In this document: piece after piece, positions 22,499-25,717 of the stretch
Layout of the letters: the number at the start of each line of letters is the position of its first letter
Numbering within the stretch: the stretch's first letter is position 1
Assembly: GCF_000147715.2 (NCBI RefSeq)
Contig: NC_017934.1
Span: forward strand, 2,294,001 to 2,358,000
Length of the DNA: 64,000 nt
Source: Mesotoga prima MesG1.Ag.4.2
Lineage (GTDB): Bacteria > Thermotogota > Thermotogae > Petrotogales > Kosmotogaceae
Direction: 5' to 3'
The notes under the pieces: generated by a model
Databases searched by the model: none
What the model saw: only the letters and a program-made list of their open reading frames with translations
Told to the model about the DNA's origin: nothing
Program-made: the position numbers and the translations under genes

Positions 22499-22726
22499 CG
22501 TTTGGGCACCTCCTTATAGAAACGGATCATCTGGACAGGAATCTTCTGGCCCCGATATAGGATGAGAAAGCCAACAATCCCCAGAACTCCTGCATTGAAA
22601 ACATTGTCTTCGGAGTGAAAATACACAACTCTTTTGAAAGCTCCCGATGGCTCAAAGCACCACACTTTTGATTTTACCAGATAGCCTTCGCCATGATAGA
22701 ATAATGGGGGGAAAGAGGAGTTGGAT

Positions 22727-24400
22727 TTGAAGAATTCTAGAATTTGCGGTCTGGCCTTAAGATTTAATTATGACAATCCCGAGGATTTCAGATCAGAGCT
22801 GAGATCCATTTATGAGCAAGAAGACCTTTCTAGAGAAGAGATTGGAATGCTTCTGGCTCTCGATTTTGCTTACTCTAGTACGTTTGATGAGGCGAGGGAA
22901 TTTGATTCCTCTGGTACAGATCTCAAGCTTCTGGCCGAAGGAGTGTATTCGCTGTCCTATTTTTATGCCAGGAATTCCGAAGACAAGATAGCGTACCTTG
23001 TGTCGAAGCTTGCGGTAGATCATATTGCCAGAGAATGCGAAAGGGAGCAAGAGATTAATCTGAAGATACTCCATATGATGACCTCGTTCGAAATGGGCTT
23101 CGGTGAAGAAACACTACTTCTCTTCGAAGAACTTATGAAGCTCGAAAAGTATGTTCCAGTTCAGAAGCGCTTTGAGTATTACAACGATCTTGGTCTTGTA
23201 TCAACTCAGCTCCGAACTGGCGGCAATCCGTTGAGGTTCTACGAGAAGGCTAAGGAACTTGCCGGTTCGCCGGTAAGAGCTCTGATGGTACAGCTGAATA
23301 TGATTGATTATCTTTACTCTAAGAACATGTTCAAAGAAGCTCTTAAGCTTCTTGACAAGACGGAAAGCTGCAACGTAGTTTCCATAAACGGATACAGACT
23401 CATGATAAATCTCAAGATCCTGCTGCAGATGAGTAGCCTCGCAAGAGCAACTGCCGTTGCCGATCAACTTGAATCCCTAATTCGTTCTCATGGGGAATGG
23501 ACGGATATCGCAGTATCTTACATTTTTCTGGGGCATTTCTACGTGAAGATTGGCAATATCTCTAAGGCACAAAACTATCTAAATCTTCTGAAATCTCTTC
23601 CGGACGAATCCCTTACAAACTATATCCGAGGGGAGACGCTTATTCTCGAGGCTTCGATAATGCAAGCCAAGGGAGAACATTTCCGAGCACTTGAAAACTC
23701 TGTTGGCGCTTTCGAGACGCTTACACTTTACAGTACAACGTCGCCACATCTTAAAGATTTCGTAAATAATCTCTTTGGAAGTATTTCGGCAGTTTTCACT
23801 CAGCTCATCAGAGAGCTCAGGCTCAAGGATAGCTATACCGCTCTTCATACACTTAGAGTTCTGAAGATATGCTACGAGTTTGGTAAAGAGCTTGAACTAG
23901 AAAAGATAGATCTGTTCAATCTATCAATAGGTGCAATGCTGCACGATTACGGCAAGGTCGACATACCATTCGACTTGTTGAACAAGCCGTCAAAGTTGAC
24001 TGAAGAGGAATTCACGGAGATAATGAATCATCCCGTGTACGGCGAGCGTTACTTGCGGGATTTGAACTTTCCTATAGCAATAAGAGATATAGTCAGACAT
24101 CATCACGAAAGAATAGACGGAAAGGGCTACCCCGACGGTTTGAAGGGAGACGAAATTCACAAGCTCGTTCAAATAGTTGCAGTAGCAGACGTATTCGATG
24201 CACTGACGACCGACAGACCATACAGAAAAGCGATTACAAAGGAGAAAGCTCTGGAGTACCTAGAAGAAAAAGGCGACCAATTAATCTCAAAAGGTCTCCT
24301 CTCTAGGTTTATAAGATTTGCTCAGCACAAAGAAATAAGCATACAAGAAAAAGAAATAACTGTACTATGGCGTTCAATAATCTCCGAACTCTTCAAATAA
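22727..24400 (+). CDS. HD-GYP domain protein with helical-repeat N-terminus
   Basis: 557 residues from TTG 22727 (GAGG eight bases upstream). Residues about 1-360 are helical and repeat-like, probably TPR-type (paired helices rich in Ala, Leu and Tyr). Residues about 370-540 form an HD-GYP domain: LHDYGKVDIP, MNHPVYGERYL, VRHHHERIDGKGYPDGLKG and DVFDALTTDRPYRKA. HD-GYP enzymes degrade cyclic di-GMP. The TPR part may bind a protein partner. No signal peptide or membrane segment. It is convergent with the small-peptide array. Confidence 0.85.
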   Translation: MKNSRICGLALRFNYDNPEDFRSELRSIYEQEDLSREEIGMLLALDFAYSSTFDEAREFDSSGTDLKLLAEGVYSLSYFYARNSEDKIAYLVSKLAVDHIARECEREQEINLKILHMMTSFEMGFGEETLLLFEELMKLEKYVPVQKRFEYYNDLGLVSTQLRTGGNPLRFYEKAKELAGSPVRALMVQLNMIDYLYSKNMFKEALKLLDKTESCNVVSINGYRLMINLKILLQMSSLARATAVADQLESLIRSHGEWTDIAVSYIFLGHFYVKIGNISKAQNYLNLLKSLPDESLTNYIRGETLILEASIMQAKGEHFRALENSVGAFETLTLYSTTSPHLKDFVNNLFGSISAVFTQLIRELRLKDSYTALHTLRVLKICYEFGKELELEKIDLFNLSIGAMLHDYGKVDIPFDLLNKPSKLTEEEFTEIMNHPVYGERYLRDLNFPIAIRDIVRHHHERIDGKGYPDGLKGDEIHKLVQIVAVADVFDALTTDRPYRKAITKEKALEYLEEKGDQLISKGLLSRFIRFAQHKEISIQEKEITVLWRSIISELFK

Positions 24401-24424: not shown

Positions 24425-24571
24425 TCAATAACCTTCGGGAATCTTCCAAAGTCCCGGGCCACCATCAACGGTAAACTCGCCTTCGGGAATCTTCCAAAGT
24501 CCAGGTCCTGCAAGCGCAACCGTACCAAACGATACCAAACCTATCAAAAGAATTGCGATCATCTTTTTCAT
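24425..24571 (-). CDS. small secreted GPGLWKIPEG-repeat peptide precursor, copy 1
   Basis: 48 residues from ATG 24571, with GGGAGGT seven bases upstream. MKKMIAILLIGLVSFGTVALA is a textbook signal peptide with an A-L-A cleavage site. The mature 27 residues are GPGLWKIPEG, linker EFTVDG, GPGLWKIPEG and a final Tyr. It has one Lys and one Trp per repeat and no Cys. The repeated decapeptide resembles precursors that are cut into identical short signals, but no processing enzyme is adjacent. Function is unknown. The last gene of the array, convergent with the HD-GYP gene. Confidence 0.75.
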   Translation of the reverse strand: MKKMIAILLIGLVSFGTVALAGPGLWKIPEGEFTVDGGPGLWKIPEGY

Positions 24572-24614
24572 CAAACTAACCTCCCTTTACCCATGAAAAA
24601 ATCGATGTTGAAAA

Positions 24615-24761
24615 TCAATAACCTTCGGGAATCTTCCAAAGTCCCGGGCCACCATCAACGGTAAACTCGCCTTCGGGAATCTTCCAAAGTCCAGGTCCTG
24701 CAAGCGCAACCGTACCAAACGATACCAAACCTATCAAAAGAATTGCGATCATCTTTTTCAT
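24615..24761 (-). CDS. small secreted GPGLWKIPEG-repeat peptide precursor, copy 2
   Basis: Identical in sequence to copy 1, including its ribosome binding site and 43-base spacer to the next copy. 48 residues: Sec-type signal peptide, then two GPGLWKIPEG units joined by EFTVDG. Exact identity means the copies add dosage rather than diversity. Confidence 0.75.
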   Translation of the reverse strand: MKKMIAILLIGLVSFGTVALAGPGLWKIPEGEFTVDGGPGLWKIPEGY

Positions 24762-24804
24762 CAAACTAACCTCCCTTTACCCATGAAAAAATCGATGTTG
24801 AAAA

Positions 24805-24951
24805 TCAATAACCTTCGGGAATCTTCCAAAGTCCCGGGCCACCATCAACGGTAAACTCGCCTTCGGGAATCTTCCAAAGTCCAGGTCCTGCAAGCGCAAC
24901 CGTACCAAAGGATACCAAACCTATCAAAAGAATTGCGATCATCTTTTTCAT
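24805..24951 (-). CDS. small secreted GPGLWKIPEG-repeat peptide precursor, copy 3
   Basis: As copies 1 and 2 except for one silent base change in the signal-peptide part (a Ser codon). Same ribosome binding site and the same 27-residue mature peptide. Confidence 0.75.
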   Translation of the reverse strand: MKKMIAILLIGLVSFGTVALAGPGLWKIPEGEFTVDGGPGLWKIPEGY

Positions 24952-24994
24952 CAAACTAACCTCCCTTTACCCATGAAAAAATCGATGTTGAAAA

Positions 24995-25141
24995 TCAATA
25001 ACCTTCGGGAATCTTCCAAAGTCCCGGGCCACCATCAACGGTAAACTCGCCTTCGGGAATCTTCCAAAGTCCAGGTCCTGCAAGAGTAACTCCACCAAGT
25101 GCTATCAATCCAATAAGAAGAATTGCTGCTACCTTTTTCAT
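24995..25141 (-). CDS. small secreted GPGLWKIPEG-repeat peptide precursor, copy 4 (probable founder)
   Basis: 48 residues from ATG 25141 with GGAGGTGA upstream. The signal peptide differs in sequence (MKKVAAILLIGLIALGGVTLA) but keeps length and an L-A cleavage site. The mature 27 residues are identical to the other copies, also in DNA. It is the promoter-proximal gene, so it is probably the founder. Independent drift of the signal peptide with an intact mature part supports translation and selection, although gene conversion of the 3' half could also explain it. Confidence 0.78.
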   Translation of the reverse strand: MKKVAAILLIGLIALGGVTLAGPGLWKIPEGEFTVDGGPGLWKIPEGY

Positions 25142-25198: not shown

Positions 25199-25231
25199 TT
25201 AGTGATCTTCTTCTTCAGGTATCTTCCACAT
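25199..25231 (-). CDS. possible ten-residue WKIPE peptide
   Basis: ATG 25231 is preceded by GGAGGTG at good spacing and encodes MWKIPEEEDH then a stop. The DNA (CTTCAGGTATCTTCCACA on the plus strand) is clearly related to the repeat unit of the array downstream. There is no signal peptide. It could be a leader peptide, an intracellular partner, or a truncated remnant of an older copy. Confidence 0.4.
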   Translation of the reverse strand: MWKIPEEEDH

Positions 25232-25717
25232 ACACCGCACCTCCTGGTCAAGTGTTCGAGTGATAAATTACCTTTTGAATCTCTCTCCACCTCTAAAATT
25301 TCTTAACAAAACTCAAGCTACTACGAATAAATGTTTGGTCGGATGGACAAGAAGAAAACAACAGCATCTCTACATGAACAAGATAACAACTACATTCTAG
25401 AACAAGAGCAATCAAATACGCAAACATCAATAGAAGAAGAATGGAAGTGATAATCAGGTGCAAAAGGTGATAATCGCTGACAAACGACTATGATGAAGCG
25501 TAGAACAGATAATCAAACGTAAGAACTATAAATATGACCAAATCATATGCTGTACTATTAATTATAACCTTTGCGAGGCAAGATTAGAAACTGATCTCAC
25601 AAAAATTAAACTAGTAATTCATGCGAGTGTAAAAATCAAAAATAGAAATCGAAAGTTCGCATTGTCTAATGAGGCGAATACCTTTTATAAGTTTAGCCTT
25701 TGCTAGTTTGTTGTGGT
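25232..25717. other. intergenic region upstream of the peptide array
   Basis: About 490 bases, A-rich on the plus strand. It must hold the promoter of the peptide array, but I see no convincing -35/-10 pair. A 39-codon plus-strand frame at 25331-25450 is very polar (Glu, Gln, Asn, Lys) and lacks a ribosome binding site. No hairpin or RNA fold was recognised. Confidence 0.35.

Follow-up and report, generated by a model that had tools for sequence, protein, structure and literature searches.

A tandem array of secreted repeat-peptide genes and a convergent TPR-HD-GYP gene suggest an undescribed peptide signal controlling c-di-GMP in Thermotogota

In Mesotoga prima, four secreted repeat-peptide genes and a leaderless mini-gene upstream of them run convergently to a gene encoding a TPR-HD-GYP protein, and this locus suggests an undescribed peptide signal controlling c-di-GMP in Thermotogota. 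We consider it about an even call that the convergent TPR-HD-GYP protein has its cognate ligand in these peptides, the two forming an RRNPP-like pair outside Bacillota to which secreted propeptides were added in Mesotoga and its sister genus. The window, that is, the whole 64,000-bp stretch of DNA analysed, spans positions 2294001-2358000 of the 2,974,229-bp chromosome. The features of the locus are given below in window coordinates.

22721-24400, plus strand: TPR-HD-GYP protein of 559 aa, the proposed receptor and effector
24425-24571, minus strand: copy 4 of the secreted repeat-peptide gene, encoding the same protein as copy 2
24615-24761, minus strand: copy 3, encoding the same protein as copy 2
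24805-24951, minus strand: copy 2, signal peptide MKKMIAILLIGLVSFGTVALA followed by the mature peptide of copy 1
24995-25141, minus strand: copy 1, signal peptide MKKVAAILLIGLIALGGVTLA followed by the mature peptide GPGLWKIPEGEFTVDGGPGLWKIPEGY
25199-25231, minus strand: leaderless mini-gene of 10 codons, MWKIPEEEDH (DNA ATGTGGAAGATACCTGAAGAAGAAGATCACTAA), lacking a signal peptide
25238-25245, minus strand: ribosome binding site of the mini-gene, AGGAGGTG
25394-25424, minus strand: possible promoter, TTTGCG-19-TAGAAT, proposed from the alignment by eye
25443-25517, minus strand: region with three GATTATC boxes (25449-25455, 25469-25475 and 25508-25514)

The four 48-codon minus-strand frames of the original prediction were all present, each with an ATG start, a 48-aa product and an upstream ribosome binding site (GGAGGTGAAGTGAATG for copy 1 and GGGAGGTTAGTTTGATG for copies 2-4). 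The predicted signal peptides are basic-hydrophobic and, with the signal peptidase site placed by the -3,-1 rule, end in TLA before G in copy 1 and in ALA before G in copies 2-4, in agreement with the ends first proposed. The 27-residue mature peptide, GPGLWKIPEG-EFTVDG-GPGLWKIPEG-Y, was likewise found as described and was the same in all four copies. It matched no family in Pfam or NCBIfam, so the earlier statement that it could not be matched to any described family stands as far as the peptide is concerned. An Rfam search over the array and related loci returned nothing relevant, and the plasmid and viral contigs searched contained no relative. Related genome contigs came from Kosmotogaceae/Thermotogales MAGs only. 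A match in Halobacteriales (L140) was a chance occurrence inside a long ORF, and motif matches in L084 and L075 were dismissed as chance on reading.

TRF reported the array as a 190-bp period present in 3.5 copies, with 99% matches and a score of 1321. The mature coding DNA is identical among the four copies of the Mesotoga prima window, with 0 synonymous differences. Therefore, the combination of a conserved mature part with variable signal peptides inside the array reflects recent duplication or conversion, and the array in Mesotoga prima is by itself a case of recent homogenisation, not selection. The evidence of selection comes from comparison between species rather than from within the array. 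Orthologues of the secreted gene were found in all nine Mesotoga-genus genomes retaining the locus, and these relatives include homologues with conserved mature and variable signal sequence, whose absence was to have refuted the original prediction; this check thus came out in its favour. Compared with the window copy, the mature part of other species carries 4-12 synonymous and 0-6 replacement codons (dN 0-0.1 where dS is 0.25-2.2; dN/dS about 0-0.1 across the genus), and the signal peptides diverge faster than the mature part. This pattern, as read from the codon comparison, indicates that the mature sequence is under strong purifying selection across the genus. Furthermore, the precursor of the sister genus consists of a signal peptide followed by GPGMWKVPSEG-DCINS-GPGMWKVPSEG-ELEP, and the core GPG-[LFM]-WK-[IV]-P is invariant between Mesotoga and the sister genus except at the bracketed positions. 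Copy number in the Mesotoga-genus relatives ranges from one to four, which lends little weight to the claim that the peptide is made at high dosage; several of these arrays sit at the ends of contigs, as assemblies break at tandem repeats. In one relative, a decayed second copy (L063:9763-9855) has lost its signal peptide and kept VTVDGGPGLWKIPEGY, a case of array turnover. A short gene that multiplied in tandem by neutral expansion, with no role for the organism, would account for the near identity of copies 2-4, the varying copy number and the decayed copy, but the purifying selection seen in the mature part when species and genera are compared makes this extremely improbable.

A TTTGCA/TCTAAAAT-like sequence recurs, again by eye, at the position of the possible promoter in relatives. 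A scan with the sigma-70 consensus found sites no more numerous than in shuffles and did not call the possible promoter. Boxes similar to GATTATC precede the array in several relatives, the sister genus included, and are possible sites of a regulator. The last 20 bases of L066 (TGTATAAGAGACAG) we take to be a transposase adapter, that is, a library artefact and not upstream DNA.

The mini-gene MWKIPEEEDH, overlooked in the original prediction, is presumed to be the first gene of the array's operon. It was found in all eight Mesotoga-genus genomes whose contigs reach the spot and, as MWKVPDDEEE, in both sister-genus genomes. Identity is 88% over the first seven codons of the mini-gene and about 32% in the flanks, and the differences within the first eight codons are synonymous or exchange I for V or E for D. 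The ATGTGGAARNTNCC site occurs once in the window's genome, at the mini-gene. A second locus was observed in three other Mesotoga-genus genomes and is absent from the window's genome. There, a lone mini-ORF encoding MWKIPEG or MWKIPEGE lies behind a terminator-like hairpin at the following positions.

L072:2843-2869, minus strand: second-locus mini-ORF
L073:2788-2811, minus strand: second-locus mini-ORF
L074:2909-2935, minus strand: second-locus mini-ORF

The second-locus mini-ORF is conserved, and in the most distant genome the DNA around it is no more than 72% alike. Nearby (L072:1105-1536, L073:1237-1512 and L074:4234-4653), secreted proteins carrying thrombospondin type 3-like DEDGDGxNDNCP repeats and small secreted GPGDGxPDGPD peptides are encoded, and a group II intron domain (Rfam RF01999; L074:1274-1393, minus strand) also lies close by.

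The stop codon of the TPR-HD-GYP gene is separated by 24 bp from that of the last array copy. The encoded protein consists of an N-terminal TPR superhelix (about aa 1-340) and a C-terminal HD-GYP domain and has no signal peptide. The HD-GYP part matched Pfam HD_5 (3e-34) and, in Foldseek searches of the PDB, 4mcw and 9rbz. Its catalytic motif is intact (HDYGK at 408 and HHERIDGKGYP at 461), and with the HD, HHExxDGxGYP and metal-site motifs present it is a predicted c-di-GMP phosphodiesterase. TPR matches in Pfam were below cut-off only. The AlphaFold2 model (pLDDT 87.5 overall) shows residues 1-353 (pLDDT 86.7) as an all-helical TPR superhelix. The highest TM-scores of this predicted part against the PDB were obtained with Rap receptors (0.64/0.64 for apo pLS20 Rap, 6t3h; 0.64/0.60 for RapF, 3ulq; 0.63/0.62 for Rap-Phr*, 6t46). 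TPR folds are generic, and others also matched (MalT, TM 0.60; LGN, about 0.5-0.57), LGN having the best Foldseek E-value (2e-5). Sequence identity between the TPR part and Rap is 11-13%; therefore, the resemblance is a likeness of fold and not proof of common ancestry. Polar conserved positions fell on inner TPR helices in 9 of 13 cases, which was not significant (p = 0.26). The sister genus has its array flanked on one side by the TPR-HD-GYP gene and on the other by a second gene, whose product is homologous to the TPR part (3e-10; also found by the profile) and has no HD-GYP domain.

L065:6071-7468 and L111, divergent from the array: second TPR protein of the sister genus

In four genera, a WxP peptide gene, leaderless or secreted, faces TPR-HD-GYP orthologue 1 as its immediate convergent neighbour. 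In the thermophilic (Kosmotoga-type) genera, the homologue is leaderless only, 21-24 aa long and always convergent to the TPR-HD-GYP orthologue; one genus has such a leaderless homologue in three genomes, and a fourth genus has one too. The convergent leaderless ORFs past the orthologue stops in other genera (MIPTPMGSPGLWAVPVEDEELGEV, MFTVLMGPGMWTFPDDDDKLED, MFTVLMGPGMWVFPDDDDKLED and MLMMGPGMWQIPDEEEEFDPT) each have a strong ribosome binding site and no signal peptide, and they lie 50-140 bp beyond the point where the HD-GYP match ends. Outside the peptide/TPR-HD-GYP pair, the flanking DNA differs among genera, indicating that the pair was kept while its surroundings changed. In addition, of the 103 Thermotogota genomes scanned with the DNA pattern GPGxWxxP[DE], 12 had matches; these numbered 37 and never fell outside this locus, compared with 3 matches for the reversed-pattern control, and the TPR domain was detected in 15 of the 103, all of the same family. 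One family genome of another genus (G013, 91% complete) had neither the motif nor the TPR domain; both were also missing from G008, which at 78% completeness is too incomplete to weigh. Beside the unlinked second TPR-HD-GYP paralogues of two Kosmotoga-type genomes (L115 and L116), no WxP peptide was found; these paralogues are instead convergent with a gene for a 434-aa secreted protein starting FGPELxFG. The linkage evidence all comes from one family, about 17 genomes, and could partly be inherited synteny.

This distribution also bears on a different function for the DNA, in which its coding look is secondary and the region is a regulatory RNA, an attenuator or an antisense RNA against the 3' end of the HD-GYP transcript. 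The close convergent arrangement, short hairpins in each copy and a tiny leader ORF resembling that of an attenuator fit such a function. However, the changes between relatives are overwhelmingly synonymous, Rfam has no match, and the motif is retained despite DNA variation and differing contexts, making this explanation very improbable. A translation-arrest or Trp-attenuator leader was set aside because there is no regulated downstream enzyme gene and because other genera have the leaderless homologue by itself.

The neighbours of the array, identified mostly by reading, are the TPR-HD-GYP gene, a C69-type peptidase, a metallo-beta-lactamase-fold protein and a chromate-transporter-like pair. 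Among the neighbours, all read and in part searched, no dedicated exporter, protease, immunity or modification gene adjoined the locus, and the adjacent immunity, export and modification genes that mark a bacteriocin or RiPP cluster were missing with them. The original prediction had offered a signal, an adhesin-like peptide or an antimicrobial. The first option is strengthened by the neighbouring receptor candidate, the family-wide linkage and the precedent of Rap-Phr repeat propeptides; the other two are weakened, since the forms encoded by the family's other genera are all leaderless and nothing beside the locus is dedicated to export, proteolysis or immunity. Clear signal peptides, the repeats and the high copy number in the window's genome would suit a secreted peptide acting outside the cell, as a matrix or toga component, an adhesin or an antimicrobial, with the HD-GYP gene co-regulated or historically linked. 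We regard this as distinctly unlikely, because it gives no reason for the leaderless homologues and the conserved Mesotoga mini-gene, or for linkage to one specific gene with no immunity, export or modification genes nearby.

The leaderless peptide occurs in every genus with the orthologous receptor gene and was therefore taken as the ancestral TPR-HD-GYP ligand. As the receptor has no signal peptide and this ligand is leaderless, the two would meet in the cytosol. Kosmotoga-type genomes have no Sec-secreted form, and intercellular signalling is thus not family-wide. The same facts leave room for a purely intracellular arrangement, in which the leaderless micropeptide is a fixed subunit or inhibitor of the TPR-HD-GYP protein and the secreted copies serve elsewhere (periplasm or toga) or as a sink, with no cell-cell signalling. 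The leaderless form alone in Kosmotoga-type genera, the mini-gene at the head of the Mesotoga array and the shared cytosolic location all agree with it, but the same core in secreted form, the strong selection and the up to four copies are left unexplained; on balance, we judge it unlikely.

Under the preferred reading, in which the peptides are ligands of the TPR-HD-GYP protein, the ligand core would be [GPG]-[LMF]-W-x-[IVF]-P-acidic, and the output would lie in c-di-GMP breakdown rather than in transcription. The leaderless form (MWKIPEEEDH in Mesotoga prima), made in the cytosol, would be the ancestral, family-wide component, and the secreted propeptides of Mesotoga and the sister genus would provide a further way to export that core. 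Signal peptidase would free the mature peptide, and proteases would trim it to WKIPEG-type oligopeptides, which may be re-imported by an oligopeptide permease. The imported peptide would then bind the TPR groove, competing or acting in concert with the leaderless form, so that phosphodiesterase activity would be set by cell density or envelope retention, with an effect of either sign. We infer all of these steps, from signal-peptide cleavage and trimming through import to TPR binding, and likewise the direction in which the activity would change. The window's genome encodes 16 SBP_bac_5 (oligopeptide-binding-type) proteins and 18 GGDEF domains, making peptide import and c-di-GMP turnover plausible. 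Many SBP_bac_5-type proteins in Thermotogota bind sugars. SBP_bac_5 and GGDEF match pairs with identical scores (G000:C1, 1772018/1858550 and 1832696/1908999) suggest recent duplications elsewhere on the chromosome. The acidic C-termini of the leaderless forms may be analogous to those of EEVD-type TPR ligands. A more specific version, which we put forward tentatively and consider rather unlikely, is peptide quorum sensing in a diderm outside Bacillota, in which one array would supply a leaderless cytosolic ligand and a secreted repeat ligand sharing one core, both binding a single TPR-HD-GYP protein, and c-di-GMP breakdown would report the ratio of own to imported signal.

Thermotoga maritima reportedly has a density-responsive peptide, and peptide signalling is said to have been proposed in the same phylum. 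No sequence relation of the peptides described here to it was found, GPGxWxxP[DE] being absent from Thermotogota outside the family in the 103 genomes. PMC6022435 cites peptide signalling with a methanogen. In Rap-Phr systems, repeat and multi-gene propeptides are established (PMC5199041, PMC11343458, PMC9765709). The Mesotoga pair resembles them in a small propeptide with a predicted Sec-type signal beside a predicted TPR protein, a proposed non-DNA-binding output, propeptide repeats or multiple genes, and the best TM-scores of the predicted TPR part. In contrast to Rap-Phr, it belongs to diderm Thermotogota, has as proposed effector a predicted HD-GYP phosphodiesterase C-terminal to the TPRs in a candidate receptor of 559 aa, is convergent, and has a longer, tryptophan-containing peptide core, with identity of about 12%. 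RopB-LCP pairs in Streptococcus and other Bacillota use leaderless signals from a very short ORF beside a TPR receptor (PMC10518010), as do, in layout, MWKIPEEEDH and the Kosmotoga-type peptides, which are very short, lack a signal sequence and lie beside a TPR protein. However, LCPs are hydrophobic, whereas the Thermotogota leaderless peptides are C-terminally acidic; the Mesotoga array mixes leaderless and secreted forms, and its candidate receptor is not a transcription factor. In Vibrio RcbA/RcbB, a TPR domain directly controls a GGDEF c-di-GMP enzyme (PMC12282931), and the Mesotoga pair is proposed to follow the same principle, although the Vibrio partner is another TPR protein and not a peptide, and the Vibrio enzyme makes rather than breaks c-di-GMP.

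The five-point RRNPP signature comprises a propeptide of 10-100 aa, Sec secretion, a receptor of 250-500 aa, peptide-binding TPRs and adjacent genes (PMC10075063), and RRNPPA proteins have been described from Bacillota (PMC9765709). The propeptides fall within the size range (48 aa secreted, 10 aa for the mini-gene and 21-24 aa for the Kosmotoga-type forms), and the receptor candidate and propeptide genes are direct neighbours. Sec features (KK, a hydrophobic core and an AxA-type site) are present by sequence in Mesotoga and the sister genus and absent from the leaderless forms. The receptor, at 559 aa, exceeds the length limit because of its HD-GYP domain, the TPR part alone being about 340 aa. 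As for homology with Rap/NprR/PlcR/AimR, the fold is similar at 11-13% identity, and the LGN and MalT TPRs match too. With size and adjacency in line, Sec export partial, TPRs recognised by fold only and the receptor overlength, we did not class the pair as RRNPP; its mode of action may be similar.

Known RRNPP receptors of imported linear peptides come from Bacillota and their mobile elements and act mostly on transcription or phosphorelays. If our reading is true, it would tie peptide signalling directly to c-di-GMP and carry the principle into a diderm phylum that branched early, and leaderless and secreted ligands sharing one core would represent a new control design. Moreover, peptide signalling, reported but poorly understood in Thermotogota, would gain sequences that can be tested.
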